A stretch of 64,000 bases of DNA from an uncultured Sphingomonas sp. (lineage in GTDB: Bacteria; Pseudomonadota; Alphaproteobacteria; Sphingomonadales; Sphingomonadaceae). The stretch's first letter is position 1. Every line of letters starts with the position of its first letter. Shown in pieces: positions 1-4,752 of this stretch. The stretch spans positions 24,044 to 88,043 of the forward strand of contig CAJYSA010000021.1 in the NCBI GenBank assembly GCA_913777325.1, in the 5' to 3' direction. The notes below the pieces were generated by a model. It did no database searches. It was given only the letters and a program-made list of their open reading frames with translations, and was not told the origin of the DNA. A program made the translations under genes and the position numbers.

Positions 1-421
1 GATCGACCAGCGGATTGTCGAGTCGGCGATCGACGCCCAGCGTCAGCGCCGCGTCGGGCGCGGCGGCGACCTGCGCGACCAACGCGGGATCGACCAGATG
101 ATCGGCCATCATCAGCAGGTGGCGGCGCGCGCCGATCGCCTGCGCCCCCGTCAGCACCGAATGGCCGTTGGGCAACGACCAGTCGGTAGTTCGCACACAG
201 CGCAGCGGCACGCCGATCGTCGCGGCGGCGAGCGCCAGATGCCGCTCCAGCCGCTCCGCCTCGTGCCCGGTCACCACCGTCACGTCGGTGACGCCCCCGG
301 CGATGGCGGCGCGCAGCACGCGCTCGATCAGAGCGACGCCGTGGACCGGCGTCAGCGGTTTCGAGGGGGACACCTCGCGCAGCCGGCTGCCATAGCCGGC
401 CGCGACGATCAGCGCGTGCAA
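1..421 (-). CDS. NTP-transferase, probable inositol-phosphate cytidylyltransferase (3' part missing)
   Basis: About 140 N-terminal residues of a nucleotidyltransferase are visible; the rest lies beyond the left edge. The start is the nucleotide-binding signature AAGYGSRLR followed by KPLTPV, typical of CTP- or dTTP-dependent sugar/alcohol-phosphate nucleotidyltransferases; a later MMADHLVDP fits the metal-binding aspartate strand. I place the start at a TTG (419-421), inside the last bases of the upstream inositol-phosphate synthase gene; no clear ribosome binding site is seen, so translational coupling is likely. The family includes CTP:inositol-1-phosphate cytidylyltransferase and phosphocholine cytidylyltransferases. 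The neighbouring inositol-phosphate synthase and CDP-alcohol phosphotransferase favour CDP-inositol formation, but the substrate is inference. Confidence 0.72.
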   Translation of the reverse strand, partial: MHALIVAAGYGSRLREVSPSKPLTPVHGVALIERVLRAAIAGGVTDVTVVTGHEAERLERHLALAAATIGVPLRCVRTTDWSLPNGHSVLTGAQAIGARRHLLMMADHLVDPALVAQVAAAPDAALTLGVDRRLDNPLVD

Positions 422-434
422 GGCAGGTCGCCGC

Positions 435-1541
435 TTATTCGGCGGCGAGGCGCGCGTCGGCGTGGATGAACTCGTTGGTCATCGCGGCCGCGACGTCGTC
501 GGTCACCTGCTGCGGCGGGTGCTTGCAGAAGAACGCCGACGGGCCTTCCAGCGCGCCGCCGATGCCGCGCTCCAGACCGAGCTTCACGCAACGGATCGCG
601 TCGACCACGACCGCCGCCGAGTTCGGCGAATCCTCGACCGACAGGCGCAGTTCGAGGTTCATCGGCACGCCACCGAACAGGTCACCCTCAAGCCGCAGGA
701 AGCACAGCTTGTTGTCGCCCAGCCACGGAATATAGTCCGACGGGCCGACGTGGATGTTCTCGTCCGCCAGCCGCTCGGCGATCACCGCCTGCACCGCCTC
801 GGTCTTCGACTCCTTCTTGCTCGCCAGCCGGTTGCGGTCGAGCATGTTCATGAAGTCGGTGTTGCCGCCGGTGTTGAGCTGATAGGTGTGATCGATCGTC
901 ACGCCGCGCTGGCCGAACAGGTTCGACAGCACGCGGTGGACGATCGTCGCGCCGACCTGCGCCTTCACGTCGTCGCCGATGATCGGCAGGCCGGCGTCGG
1001 CGAACTTCTTCTCCCACTCCGGACGCGACGCGATGAACACGGGCATGCAGTTGACGACGCCCAGACCGGCCTCGAGCGCGCATTCCATGTAGAATTCGGT
1101 CGCCGCTTGGCTGCCGACCGGCAGGAAGTTGACGAGGATCTCGGCGCCCGAGCTCTTCAGCTCGGCAATGATCTCCGCCTTCTCCGCGTCGCGCGTGTCG
1201 TTGATCTCGAACCCGCGATCGTTGGCGGCGGTCAGCATGTGCGGCGCGACGCCGTCCAGCTTGGCGCCCATCTTCACGATCGTGCCGGTCTTCGGCACGT
1301 CGGCGTGGAACACCTTGGTGCAGTTCGGCTTGGCGAAGATCGCCTCGCCCAGATCGAGACCCACCTTGCGCGAATCGACGTCGAACGCGGCGACGAATTC
1401 CATGTCGCCGACCTTGTAGCCGCCGATATCCTCATGGATCAGGCCCGCGGCGGTGTTGCTGCCGGCGTAGTGATATTTCCCCTGAATAAGGCTGCTTGCG
1501 CAGTTGCCGACACCGATAACCGCAACCTTGATCGTCGCCAT
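435..1541 (-). CDS. ino1: Inositol-3-phosphate synthase (MIPS)
   Basis: A 368-residue cytosolic enzyme converting D-glucose 6-phosphate to inositol 3-phosphate with bound NAD, the committed step of inositol synthesis. The N-terminus carries the Rossmann segment VAVIGVGNCASSL (about residues 5-17), and FVAAFDVDSRKVGLDL and VNFLPVGS segments match the short actinobacterial-type MIPS as I recall it; length also fits. The ATG at 1539-1541 is chosen over an in-frame upstream ATG at 1580 because it sits at the canonical N-terminus and follows a GGGGTAGA stretch. The next gene (cytidylyltransferase) starts inside its 3' end, so the two are co-transcribed. A divergent promoter region with an inverted repeat separates it from the CDP-alcohol phosphotransferase. 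Confidence 0.9.
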   Translation of the reverse strand: MATIKVAVIGVGNCASSLIQGKYHYAGSNTAAGLIHEDIGGYKVGDMEFVAAFDVDSRKVGLDLGEAIFAKPNCTKVFHADVPKTGTIVKMGAKLDGVAPHMLTAANDRGFEINDTRDAEKAEIIAELKSSGAEILVNFLPVGSQAATEFYMECALEAGLGVVNCMPVFIASRPEWEKKFADAGLPIIGDDVKAQVGATIVHRVLSNLFGQRGVTIDHTYQLNTGGNTDFMNMLDRNRLASKKESKTEAVQAVIAERLADENIHVGPSDYIPWLGDNKLCFLRLEGDLFGGVPMNLELRLSVEDSPNSAAVVVDAIRCVKLGLERGIGGALEGPSAFFCKHPPQQVTDDVAAAMTNEFIHADARLAAE

Positions 1542-1597
1542 TCTACCCCACTTGCCGACAGTTAGCCGGACAAAAGCCATTTTACGTTGCCGCTTCG

Positions 1598-1620
1598 TGA
1601 CAGATACGTGGCATCTGTCA
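1598..1620. promoter_or_regulatory. Inverted repeat, candidate operator in a divergent promoter
   Basis: Two perfect 8-bp arms, TGACAGAT and ATCTGTCA, flank a 7-bp spacer in the 130-bp gap between ino1 (leftward) and the CDP-alcohol phosphotransferase (rightward). The spacing of half-site centres, about 15 bp, suits a dimeric repressor acting on both genes. No regulator gene lies beside it, so the binding protein is unknown. Confidence 0.5.
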
Positions 1621-1671
1621 AGCGAGCCGATGGCCTGTATAGGCGCAGCGGGGCAATCTCGCGAGGAACGC

Positions 1672-2541
1672 GTGAACGAATCTGAAACGGCTGTGGCGGG
1701 AAAGCCGCGCGAGCTGCAGGGTTTTCTGAACCGGACGATCTACCACCCGCTGGCCCATGTGCTGGCGCGCGCGCTGGTGCCGACTCCGGTGACGCCGAAC
1801 ATGGTGTCGGTCGCCGGCGCGGTGATGGTGATGGCGACCGCGGTGCTCTACGCGCGGGTCGCGACGCCGGCGGCGATCGCGCTGGGGTTCTTCCTGCACT
1901 GCGCGTGGCACGTCGTCGACGGGGCGGACGGCGCGCTGGCGCGAATGTCGGGCCGCGCGTCGCCTTCCGGCGAGATCGTCGACGGCCTGTGCGATTATGC
2001 CGGGCACGGCGTGCTGTACCTGATGCTGGCCGGCGTGCTGGACGACCGGATCGGGTGGGTGGCGTGGCCGATCGCGGTCCTGGCCGGGCTGAGCCGCGCG
2101 GTGCAATCCGTGTTCGCCGAAAGCCAGCGCCGCACCTATCAATGGTGGGCGTACAATACCCCGTGGCTGCAAACCGCCAAGGCCGGCGGGCGCGGGATCG
2201 GCGTCGCATTGTCGAACCTGTACCTGAGCGTGTGGCACGCGCTGTCCGGTCCGACGCAGCGGGTGAACGCGCTGGTGGCAAGTGCCGAGGCGGATCCGCC
2301 CGAGCGGCGACGGATCGCGGCGATCGCGCGCGCGACGGGCGGGCGGGCGCTGCCGCTGCTGGCGGCGCTGGGCGCCAATCCGCGCACGATCCTGCTGGGG
2401 CTGAGCATGATCGCGGGCACGCCCTTGTGGTTCTTCCTGATCGAGATCGTGGTGCTGAACGTCGTGCTGGTGGCCGCGATCGTGCAGGCGGCGTATCTGG
2501 GGCGACGGATCGCGGCGCAGATCGCGCACGACCACCGCTGA
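1672..2541 (+). CDS. CDP-alcohol phosphatidyltransferase family membrane protein
   Basis: A 289-residue multi-pass membrane enzyme that transfers a phospho-alcohol from a CDP-activated donor. It carries the full family signature: D83, D86, G87, A90, R91, G100, D104 and D108, with the eight-residue gap between AR and G and the two final aspartates in place; hydrophobic helices flank it. I start it at GTG 1672, preceded at five bases by GAGGAA; an ATG at 1630 is in frame but lacks such a site. It is divergent from ino1 and the cytidylyltransferase. Together they suggest that CDP-inositol, or CDP-DAG plus inositol phosphate, feeds an inositol phospholipid or inositol-phospho-sphingolipid. The acceptor cannot be read from the sequence. 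Confidence 0.82.
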   Translation: MNESETAVAGKPRELQGFLNRTIYHPLAHVLARALVPTPVTPNMVSVAGAVMVMATAVLYARVATPAAIALGFFLHCAWHVVDGADGALARMSGRASPSGEIVDGLCDYAGHGVLYLMLAGVLDDRIGWVAWPIAVLAGLSRAVQSVFAESQRRTYQWWAYNTPWLQTAKAGGRGIGVALSNLYLSVWHALSGPTQRVNALVASAEADPPERRRIAAIARATGGRALPLLAALGANPRTILLGLSMIAGTPLWFFLIEIVVLNVVLVAAIVQAAYLGRRIAAQIAHDHR

Positions 2542-2602
2542 CGCGGAACCCCCGCGAGAGCGGCGGGTTGGCGGGCGAGAGCATGAACGGGAGGAGCAGG
2601 TG

Positions 2603-3145
2603 ATGCGACAGGTTGCGATGATGGCGGGGATCGGTCTGGCGGCGCTGTCGCTGGCGGCGTGCAACGACGAGGCCAAGATGGACACCGGCACGCCGGTGGC
2701 CGGCGGTGCGCGCGCGGTGGCGATGCTGGCGACCGCGACCGGGGCGCCGGTGGGTCGCGCGACCGCCACCGAGGTGGCCGGCGGGGTGCGCTTCACGATC
2801 GACGCGACGGGTATGCCGGCGGGCACGCACGGCGCGCACGTCCACACCACCGGACGGTGCGACGCACCGGACTTCACGACGGCGGGCGGGCACTGGAATC
2901 CGACGCAGAAGAAGCACGGCTCGATGAACCCGCAGGGGCCACACGAAGGCGACCTGCCGAATCTGGTGATCGGCAACGACGGGCGTGGCACGATCGGCGC
3001 CGTGATCCCCGGCGCGACGCTGGCCGGGCTGATGGACGCCGATGGCGCGGCGATGGTGATCCACGCCGGCCCCGACGATCTGATGACCGACCCGAGCGGC
3101 AATTCGGGTGGCCGGATCGCCTGTGGCGTGTTCCAGCCCGCCTGA
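2603..3145 (+). CDS. sodC: Superoxide dismutase [Cu-Zn], lipoprotein
   Basis: A 180-residue periplasmic Cu,Zn superoxide dismutase converting superoxide to oxygen and peroxide. The N-terminus is a lipoprotein signal with lipobox LAAC (C20). Metal ligands are visible: H79 and H81 in HGAHVH, H97 in GGHWNP, H105, H114 and D117 in HEGDLPN, and H154; C86 and C174 would form the conserved disulfide. The ATG at 2603 is six bases after GGGAGGAG; a GTG just before it (2600) is less well placed. Its stop lies two bases from the stop of the convergent MFS gene. Confidence 0.93.
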   Translation: MRQVAMMAGIGLAALSLAACNDEAKMDTGTPVAGGARAVAMLATATGAPVGRATATEVAGGVRFTIDATGMPAGTHGAHVHTTGRCDAPDFTTAGGHWNPTQKKHGSMNPQGPHEGDLPNLVIGNDGRGTIGAVIPGATLAGLMDADGAAMVIHAGPDDLMTDPSGNSGGRIACGVFQPA

Positions 3146-3147
3146 CG

Positions 3148-4698
3148 CTAGAGCGGTTCGCCCGCCGCCTGCGCCCGCGCCTCGCGCGTGCGCTCGGCGG
3201 CGGGAAACCGGCGATAGGCGACCAGCGCGGCGGTGAGCGTCACCGGCACGCTGACCAGTAGCGACAGCATTCCGGTCGACAGGCTGCCGGTGAGCGTCGA
3301 GATGCGCCCGGCGAGATACGGGCCGAGCGCCAGCCCGATCAGCGTGGTGCCGATGAAGAAGGTGGCGGTGGCGGTGCCGCGCATCCGCGGCAGGACCAGA
3401 TCCTGGGTCGCGGCGGCCGCCGCGCCCAATCCCCAGGCCGCGAAGACCTGCGCACAGAAGACGCATATATACAGCACGGCGGGCGTCGCGGTGGTGTAGC
3501 CCGCGATCATGAACGGCACCGGCAGCACCGCGCTGGCGATCACCGGCACCAGCCGTCCGGCGGGGTTGCGGCGCCGCATGCGATCCGCCAGCACCCCGCC
3601 GCTGGTGACGCCGATGAACCCCGCCGCCGCGCCCGCGCCGCCGATGAACAGTCCCGCCTCCGCCGGGGCGACGCCCAGGACGCGGATCGCATAAGGCGCC
3701 GCCCAGAAGCTCGCCGCATAGGCCATGAAGGCATTCAGCCCGTAGGCGACGACGGTGCACAGAAAGGCGGGGGTGCCGAGGATCAGCGCGAACGTCGGTG
3801 GATCACGGCGACGCAGCGCACAGCCCCAGGAGAAGACCGCATAGCCGCCGACGCCCACCGCGATCCACTGCGGCAGCGGCTCGCCGCCCGCGTGGAGCAG
3901 CGCGACCAGCGCGATCGTCACCGCCAGCCCGACCGCGTTGACCAGCAACGCCCGGCGCCCCTGCCGCGCGGCACCGAGCAGCGTCAATGGCGGCAGGATC
4001 GTGACCAGTTCGTCGGCGAAGGCACGGAACGGCGCGAGGTGCGGGGGAGGGGTGGGCAAGCCTTCCACCGCGCCGCGCACCGGCTCGCGCAACGTGGCGA
4101 CCATGGCGGCGAGCGCCAGTCCCGGGATGCCGACCGCGAGAAACGCGGCCTGCCACCCCGCCAGCCCCAGCGGGCCGCCGCCGGGAAAGGCGTGATTCCA
4201 TTTCTGGACGATCAACCCGCCGATGAACAGTGAACAGCCGCCGCCGACGTAGAGGCCGGCGGAATAGATCGACAAGGCGGTGGCACGCAGCTTCTTCGGG
4301 AAATAGTCCGAGATCAGCGAATAGGCCGACGGGGAAGCGGTCGCCTCGCCCACGCCCACCCCGACGCGTGCCGCCGCCAGTTGCGCGCCGTTCGCCGACA
4401 GCCCCGACAGTGCGGTCATCGCCGACCACAATGACAGCCCGGCGGTCATCAGCCGCACGCGGTGCCAATTGTCGGCGAGCCGTCCGAGCGGGATGCCGAA
4501 CAGCGCATAGAACACCCCGAAGGCGGTGCCGTAGAGGAAGCCGAGATCCTCGTCGCGCAGCTTCAGGTCGCGCTTGATATCTTCGGCGAGGATCGAGATC
4601 ACCTGTCGATCGACGAAGTTCAGGACGTAGACCAGGAACAGCAGCCCCAGCGCATACCATGCATAGCCGCTCGCGCGTGCGTCGTGTTGCCCGGCCAT
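3148..4698 (-). CDS. MFS transporter, Spinster type
   Basis: A 516-residue inner-membrane transporter with about 12 membrane helices. The first helix carries NFVDRQVISILAEDIK, and GIPLGRLADNWHRVRLM is the MFS loop 2-3 motif; GVGVGEATASPSAYSLISDYFP is typical of the Spinster-like branch common in sphingomonads. Substrate unknown; homologues are often linked to lipid-like or organic-acid substrates. A central insertion of about 60 residues sits between the two six-helix halves. The ATG at 4698 has GGGAGG five bases upstream and is preferred to the longer frame starting at 4734. It is convergent with sodC and probably co-transcribed behind thpR, whose stop lies 54 bases upstream. Confidence 0.86.
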   Translation of the reverse strand: MAGQHDARASGYAWYALGLLFLVYVLNFVDRQVISILAEDIKRDLKLRDEDLGFLYGTAFGVFYALFGIPLGRLADNWHRVRLMTAGLSLWSAMTALSGLSANGAQLAAARVGVGVGEATASPSAYSLISDYFPKKLRATALSIYSAGLYVGGGCSLFIGGLIVQKWNHAFPGGGPLGLAGWQAAFLAVGIPGLALAAMVATLREPVRGAVEGLPTPPPHLAPFRAFADELVTILPPLTLLGAARQGRRALLVNAVGLAVTIALVALLHAGGEPLPQWIAVGVGGYAVFSWGCALRRRDPPTFALILGTPAFLCTVVAYGLNAFMAYAASFWAAPYAIRVLGVAPAEAGLFIGGAGAAAGFIGVTSGGVLADRMRRRNPAGRLVPVIASAVLPVPFMIAGYTTATPAVLYICVFCAQVFAAWGLGAAAAATQDLVLPRMRGTATATFFIGTTLIGLALGPYLAGRISTLTGSLSTGMLSLLVSVPVTLTAALVAYRRFPAAERTREARAQAAGEPL

Positions 4699-4752
4699 GC
4701 ATCCTCCCGATTTTGGCGGAGCGTACCAGACCAAGCGCTTGAGGGAAGAAGG

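Follow-up and report, generated by a model that had tools for sequence, protein, structure and literature searches.

What an inositol-3-phosphate synthase (MIPS) gene does beside genes for a nucleotidyltransferase (NTase) and a CDP-alcohol phosphotransferase (CDP-AP) is the question raised by the beginning of a 64,000-nucleotide stretch of DNA from an uncultured Sphingomonas species. This whole stretch, termed the window here (G000:C21:24044-88043), belongs to a genome of 3.6 Mb. A sequence-only reading had proposed that the three genes are grouped together and that CDP-inositol serves as a donor. All three genes were located in the sequence, and the best explanation of the trio as a whole is a dedicated CDP-inositol pathway that feeds a membrane-lipid acceptor, to which we assign a probability of roughly one half. 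The features concerned are as follows.

1..421, minus strand: 5′ part of the NTase gene, TTG start; probable CTP:inositol-1-phosphate cytidylyltransferase, with the remainder beyond the window edge.
435..1580, minus strand: MIPS (inositol-3-phosphate synthase) gene, 381 amino acids; Pfam Inos-1-P_synth match (3.2e-35).
1598..1620, no strand: inverted repeat TGACAGAT-N7-ATCTGTCA between the divergent MIPS and CDP-AP genes; candidate shared operator.
1672..2541, plus strand: CDP-AP gene, GTG start, 289 amino acids; candidate CDP-inositol-dependent inositolphosphotransferase.

In the proposed pathway, MIPS would convert glucose 6-phosphate to inositol phosphate, NTase would combine this product with CTP to give CDP-inositol, and the membrane-bound CDP-AP would transfer the inositol phosphate moiety of CDP-inositol onto an alcohol with release of CMP. 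Were this alcohol ceramide or diacylglycerol, an inositol-phospholipid would arise in one step. Protein family, gene context and a fused relative make CDP-inositol the very probable intermediate, and also make its use by the CDP-AP of the window probable. That the acceptor is a lipid is an even bet; it draws on lipids published for another genus of the family and on the presence of a sphingolipid gene in this genome.

The NTase gene was completed on the same contig (L004:9734-10465, 243 amino acids), where its end lies some 310 bases past the window edge, and its product matches Pfam NTP_transf_3 (3.6e-14). Its start at 421 is 13 bases past the MIPS stop (435), and not inside the 3′ end of MIPS as had been read from the sequence. 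MIPS matches a characterised synthase over its full length, with 1gr0 as the nearest solved structure (4e-116 over 16-372); it scores 420.7 bits against TIGR03450, under the cut-off of 638, and translation could plausibly begin instead at a second in-frame ATG, at 1541. The longest frame for CDP-AP begins at 1504, and alignments of its relatives begin near the GTG at 1672. This protein matches Pfam CDP-OH_P_transf (3.3e-11) and belongs by motif (DxxDGxxAR(8)GxxxDxxxD) and fold to the class I CDP-alcohol phosphotransferases. The motif is full, as had been claimed (D83xxD86G..A90R91..G100xxxD104xxxD108), and it is intact in all 39 aligned rows.

The three genes occur together well beyond the window. 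We drew 147 genomes from the order, with counts uncorrected for relatedness, and applied thresholds that were chosen after the lists had been seen (CDP-AP, E <= 1e-17; NTase, E <= 1e-25); these excluded two genomes with weak NTase matches and no MIPS (G120 and G141) and, among the 81 genomes that showed any CDP-AP match, 27. MIPS was found in 58 genomes, NTase and CDP-AP in 54 each, and the full trio in 51. MIPS was missing from none of the 54 NTase genomes, and the presence or absence of NTase and CDP-AP was concordant in 141 of the 147. The discordant genomes have CDP-AP without NTase (G009, G078 and G104; 95, 83 and 69 percent complete) or NTase without CDP-AP (G042, G048 and G075; 71, 95 and 85 percent complete), and three others carry MIPS with neither partner (G025, G056 and G125). 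MIPS and NTase are at most 300 bases apart in 42 of 54 genomes and at most 5 kb apart in 52. CDP-AP is within 10 kb of MIPS or NTase in 37 of the 51 trio genomes, on a different contig in 11, and on the same contig at a distance of at least 100 kb in G027, G063 and G105. Distribution in the family of the window is patchy, with NTase in 11 of 64 genomes and CDP-AP in the identical 11. Within Novosphingobium, NTase (E <= 1e-20) occurs in 119 of 195 genomes and in 90 of the 149 good ones.

A scan of genome contigs with NTase yielded 241 relatives, the best 80 of which were used for locus counts (37 from Sphingomonas, 31 from Novosphingobium, one from Altererythrobacter and 11 carrying higher names only); Novosphingobium acidiphilum is not among these best 80. 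MIPS adjoins NTase on the same strand in all 80 loci, and a CDP-AP match lies within the fetched flanks of 71. Six of the nine loci without a flanking CDP-AP have MIPS at a contig end (L113, L116, L117, L120, L131 and L132); in L103, L129 and L141 the gene is missing from the flanks although MIPS is not at a contig end. CDP-AP is divergent from MIPS in the 71 loci and no more than 700 bases away in 57. Because of the co-occurrence counts in the 147 genomes and the adjacency in the 80 loci, the grouping is more than chance, and these data support the conclusion that MIPS, NTase and CDP-AP are a conserved dedicated unit.

Two arrangements tie the genes more closely still. On the Sphingomonas parapaucimobilis plasmid NZ_CP155750.1, CDP-AP, MIPS and NTase follow one another in this order with ends that overlap by 1 and 4 bases, which makes them an operon. 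Genome G022 encodes a 461-residue protein in which NTase and CDP-AP domains are fused, near a second MIPS gene (L145:3857-5242, minus strand). This protein scores 270.8 bits, below the cut-off of 580, over 2-418 of the 419 residues of NF041135, a Thermococcales model for a fused, bifunctional inositol-phosphate cytidylyltransferase/di-inositol-phosphate phosphate (IPCT/DIPP) synthase. Because such a fusion exists, NTase and CDP-AP appear to be coupled through CDP-inositol. The fusion has Thr in place of the Ala of the CDP-AP motif. The same genome keeps two sets apart, an unfused one on contig C41 and the fusion with its own MIPS on contig C97, which suggests that they make two different products.

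By profile, NTase itself is nearest to inositol-phosphate cytidylyltransferases, and synthesis of CDP-inositol is its likely predicted function. Its best NCBIfam model is NF041135 (81.6 bits over 1-234, under the curated cut-off of 580 and spanning only the first half of the model), with the next model at 46.8. When a profile of 25 relatives was searched against the PDB, the inositol enzymes 2xme (8.4e-33 over 1-232), 4mnd (1.9e-32) and 4jd0 (1.1e-27 over 2-229) led by at least 15 orders of magnitude, with sugar enzymes at 1e-12 or weaker and the phosphocholine cytidylyltransferase 1jyk at 1.2e-11. The clustering with phosphocholine or sugar enzymes that the sequence-only reading had named as evidence against itself was not seen, as judged by profile score rather than by a tree. 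In the comparison of structures to which it had looked for confirmation, only 4jd0 stood out: it is the best match (6.5e-22) of the model of the full NTase (predicted local distance difference test, pLDDT, 95.0), and 2xme (1.3e-17) scores about the same as a UDP-glucose enzyme (1.9e-17). Best full-length matches by profile (2xme and 4jd0) and by fold (4jd0) both liken the protein to characterised CTP:inositol-1-phosphate cytidylyltransferases.

Residues R13, K21 and D107 are invariant in all 25 family members. The active-site Arg, Lys and Asp are given as R16, K26 and D112 in the excerpted text of PMC12275187; in a comparison of alignments by eye, R13 and K21 face the residues of 4jd0 that would be R16 and K26 under a single offset, and with this offset the Asp falls on residue 109, not 112. 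Three other NTases of the order, taken as controls (L142, L143 and L144), score 42.5, 73.2 and 72.3 bits against NF041135 and 65.0, 69.3 and 73.8 bits against a sugar model. The family members tested lead their next model by 19 to 48 bits (L036, 68.3/49.5; L037, 96.6/55.6; L043, 117.1/69.5; L061, 97.1/52.2; window, 81.6/46.8), a margin without parallel in the controls. An IGK...D[TC]G pattern is present in 25 of 25 members and absent from the three controls and from the MurU-like protein that is the only other NTase in the genome of the window at E <= 1e-3.

Two results weigh against the assignment of inositol as substrate. The raw score of L036 (68.3) is below those of two of the three controls, so that the margin alone separates it, and 4jd0 is also the best fold match of CpgD, an enzyme that makes CDP-glycerate. 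We therefore dropped the 4jd0 match as proof of inositol specificity, and because CpgD shares this best fold match, the substrate call rests on gene context. The enzyme might accordingly be thought to make some other CDP-alcohol, such as CDP-glycerate in the manner of CpgD, with MIPS nearby by accident, and COG1213 enzymes do accept several substrates. But the absence of NTase genomes without MIPS, the adjacency of MIPS in every locus and the overlapping operon speak against this idea, and the IGK...D[TC]G pattern and profile margin set NTase apart from the three other NTases (two of which, L143 and L144, are at a guess CpgD orthologues); we consider it highly improbable. CDP-inositol as the donor, as the sequence-only reading had it, is supported by the NTase profile, co-occurrence, the plasmid operon and MIPS adjacency.

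The fate of CDP-inositol depends on CDP-AP. Its family profile matched, in the PDB, AF2299 (54.7 bits), CEPT1 (41.5), phosphatidylinositol-phosphate (PIP) synthases (35.0 to 33.6), a cholinephosphotransferase (33.5) and the DIPP synthase 4mnd (25.1, eighth of 14), with matches that cover only the nucleotide-binding half; those to solved PIP synthases end at about residue 125, before the acceptor half with its two arginines (R153 and R191 of RsPIPS). In this ranking CEPT1, which uses a CDP-choline donor and a lipid acceptor, stands above the best PIP synthase and above DIPP synthase, which favours a lipid acceptor. The modelled structure (pLDDT 90.8) has about six membrane helices, as judged by eye from the model and hydropathy; helices spanning some 70 residues separate the likely fourth from the likely fifth, and the last helix is at 252-286 of the 289 residues. 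In a tree of 28 sequences, a single clade (support 0.93) unites the 16 CDP-AP members and excludes PgsA, PssA and the fusion protein. DIPP synthase is thus not the closest relative among CDP-alcohol phosphotransferases, being eighth by profile and outside this clade.

The protein could nevertheless join CDP-inositol to a second inositol phosphate and so make soluble di-inositol-phosphate (phosphate) as thermophiles do. NTase is closest to enzymes of that pathway, about six membrane helices fit a soluble acceptor, the Archaeoglobus fulgidus IPCT-DIPP synthase is second by fold after AF2299, and a DIPP-synthase-like fusion is present in the order (G022). Against this stand the 25.1 bits to 4mnd compared with 54.7 to AF2299, the separation of the CDP-AP clade from the fusion protein, and the co-existence in G022 of the unfused set and a fusion with its own MIPS, suggestive of different products; a thermophile solute would also be odd in what is presumably a plant- and soil-living group. 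We judge this soluble product to be unlikely.

A canonical route, in which CDP-AP would be a PIP synthase that uses CDP-diacylglycerol and inositol phosphate while NTase serves something else, draws support from two results: PIP synthases rank among the closest structures, and archaetidylinositol-phosphate synthase (39.8 bits) and PIP synthase (NF045883, 35.9 bits) lead the NCBIfam matches. The respective cut-offs are 180 and 170, however, which leaves CDP-AP outside the PIP synthases by this measure. This route would also strand NTase, for which the genome offers no other evident partner, the two further CDP-alcohol phosphotransferases detected there resembling PgsA and PssA. Yet the presence or absence of NTase matches that of CDP-AP in all but six genomes, which are 69 to 95 percent complete. 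The canonical route is in our view very unlikely.

A lipid acceptor for CDP-inositol gains from two further observations. A gene for serine palmitoyltransferase is present in the genome, its product scoring 779.9 bits against a cut-off of 670, and N. acidiphilum, of the genus in which 119 of 195 genomes carry NTase, makes lipids consistent with phosphoinositol (PI)-dihydroceramide 35:0 and 36:0 without having either known inositol lipid cluster (excerpt of PMC9246714). Several findings nonetheless argue in the other direction. AF2299 is the nearest structure by both profile and Foldseek, the latter weakly (E 3.2e-4, TM 0.50, rmsd 8.2), followed in Foldseek by the A. fulgidus IPCT-DIPP synthase (4.5e-3) and PIP synthases, with CEPT1 at rank 15. 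A single-sequence search likewise gives AF2299 33.8, PIP synthases 25.7 to 24.1, DIPP synthase 21.5 and CEPT1 21.3. The best NCBIfam models, though far under cut-off, are for enzymes that use inositol phosphate as the acceptor. According to the excerpted text of PMC4634129, six helices are linked to soluble acceptors and extra helices typically to lipid acceptors, and AF2299 and DIPP synthase do not process lipids; the CDP-AP model lacks the additional C-terminal membrane helices, three to four in number, of the CEPT1 type. Serine palmitoyltransferase-like genes (E <= 1e-150) occur in 139 of the 147 genomes irrespective of the trio, 65 of them exceeding the cut-off, and for S. paucimobilis the excerpt of PMC9246714 describes a lipid without the inositol fragment 241.

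Two arguments were accordingly set aside. The rank of CEPT1 by profile was dropped as strong support for a lipid, given its lower rank in the single-sequence and fold searches, and co-occurrence with sphingolipid genes is uninformative as to the acceptor when such genes are near-universal. It is a tentative possibility that CDP-AP is a one-step CDP-inositol:ceramide inositolphosphotransferase, an inositol-phosphoceramide synthase unrelated to Aur1 and BT_1522, that takes the head group straight from CDP-inositol and lies behind the inositol-phosphoceramide-like lipid of Novosphingobium.

Gene neighbourhoods raise the further idea that the trio adds phosphoinositol to a surface glycan or uses it to build a lipid-linked glycan anchor. 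In L036, L040 and L041 the trio has GT4 glycosyltransferases, a Wzz-like protein and an ABC-2 membrane protein as neighbours, 8 of 21 loci have a Wzx-like flippase close by, and inositol is reported in the Bacteroides thetaiotaomicron capsule (excerpt of PMC9246714). No such gene is among the annotated neighbours in the window, however, which are a superoxide dismutase, a saccharopine-dehydrogenase-like protein and a transporter of the major facilitator superfamily (MFS). Only one, for an alginate export protein, is listed next to the plasmid operon, with a TonB receptor farther away (the gene table there is incomplete). A glycan product is distinctly unlikely.

MIPS and CDP-AP might share their control region. 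The start codons used are 91 bases apart, and the perfect 8+8 inverted repeat at 1598-1620 occurs only once in the genome when as many as 2 mismatches are allowed. The sequence-only reading had placed the genes around one promoter. When 1480-1720 was scanned for a sigma-70 consensus, no match appeared, and what stands of that proposal is the divergent pair with its 91-base gap and perfect repeat. A TGACA-N13-TGTCA element is in the MIPS/CDP-AP interval of 35 of 35 Sphingomonas loci (L062-L096) but in none of 22 other closely spaced divergent pairs; its arms are constant and its inner bases variable, in loci that are related and hence non-independent. We regard the repeat as a candidate shared operator of MIPS and CDP-AP.

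Other genes were seen near the trio. A Cu/Zn superoxide dismutase gene (window 2600-3145, plus strand) lies directly downstream of CDP-AP and is syntenic in 34 of 80 loci. It is followed by the MFS gene (3148-4734, minus strand; syntenic in 21 of 80 loci, with two more weak MFS matches left uncounted), whose nearest structure is the bacterial transporter 6e8j (1.2e-42), which we take to be of the Spinster type, and then SPNS2 (1.2e-16), a sphingosine-1-phosphate transporter. Beyond NTase, the saccharopine-dehydrogenase-like gene precedes a long frame that by eye resembles a sensor kinase. A second CDP-AP of about 460 amino acids (fam4) is near the trio in 7 of 21 loci (e.g. L043:6356-7729 and L039:5959-7446); its N-terminus is weakly NTase-like, and in the five sequences viewed GxxxHxxxK stands where the motif has its third and fourth aspartates, so that it may be a catalytically dead partner. 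The CDP-AP of the trio itself was detected by tblastn at L039, L040, L047 and L053. Six loci encode a protein of about 380 amino acids (fam5; L043:8649-9797 and five relatives) with an apparent signal peptide, as judged by eye, and the one member tested at 1e-3 has no Pfam match at that level. One weak lipocalin-like match (0.027, in one of six members, with no PDB match) was not used. At L142:5196-8203 (minus strand), a different NTase adjoins a methyltransferase and a CDP-AP unlike that of the trio. The 14 kb fetched there contain no match to MIPS, and this gene set is perhaps a further CDP-alcohol pathway.

The trio offers a concrete and widespread candidate for the genes behind the inositol-phosphoceramide-like lipid of N. 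acidiphilum. If the acceptor is ceramide, it would represent a further independent bacterial route to a kind of sphingolipid familiar mainly from fungi, plants and protozoa. Our search of titles and abstracts found no publication that assigns such genes in sphingomonads. The reversed activation logic that the sequence-only reading had put forward as novel is not so, CDP-inositol having been published as a donor in thermophiles and proposed as one for Bacteroides (B. vulgatus); what is new here is the lineage, the transferase subfamily and, possibly, a ceramide acceptor.

Among known systems, the IPCT/DIPP synthases of thermophiles (A. fulgidus 2xme and 4mnd; Thermotoga maritima 4jd0) resemble the trio in NTase sequence and fold and in the pairing of NTase with CDP-AP. 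The sphingomonad proteins differ in being separate, save for the one fusion in G022, and their CDP-AP is in a clade of its own and carries some 70 extra residues after what is likely the fourth membrane helix, ahead of the fifth; the organism of the window, to go by its named relatives, is presumably not thermophilic. CpgD of Caulobacter (CDP-glycerate, ceramide diphosphoglycerate) is likewise a COG1213 cytidylyltransferase, with the same best fold match, from an alphaproteobacterium that makes phosphosphingolipids, but its substrate is phosphoglycerate, and the excerpted source names no MIPS partner for it. PIP synthase routes (BT_1523 of B. thetaiotaomicron and PgsA1 of Mycobacterium tuberculosis) have the CDP-AP family and MIPS-derived inositol phosphate in common with the trio, but there the lipid is activated, whereas in sphingomonads, where NTase is present, the inositol phosphate is proposed to be.

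Work by Jorge in 2015 reportedly described CDP-inositol-dependent synthesis of inositol phospholipids in Rhodothermus marinus. There, CDP-inositol would be the donor of a lipid head group as we propose for the sphingomonad trio, but in another lineage. The excerpt of PMC9246714 mentions dialkylether glycerophosphoinositol lipids in CDP-inositol-dependent synthesis; the sphingomonad product is possibly ceramide-based. The same excerpt describes an 'alternative inositol lipid cluster' in B. vulgatus (MIPS, an NTP transferase, a CDP-AP and a HAD hydrolase). No HAD gene is among the few annotated neighbours in the window (the rest of the genome was unsearched), and the excerpt reports no homology to either known cluster in N. 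acidiphilum. This cluster belongs to another phylum and is likened to the trio by gene families, but it unites the same three families, MIPS included, the same CDP-inositol logic has been proposed for it, and its owner makes PI-dihydroceramide.

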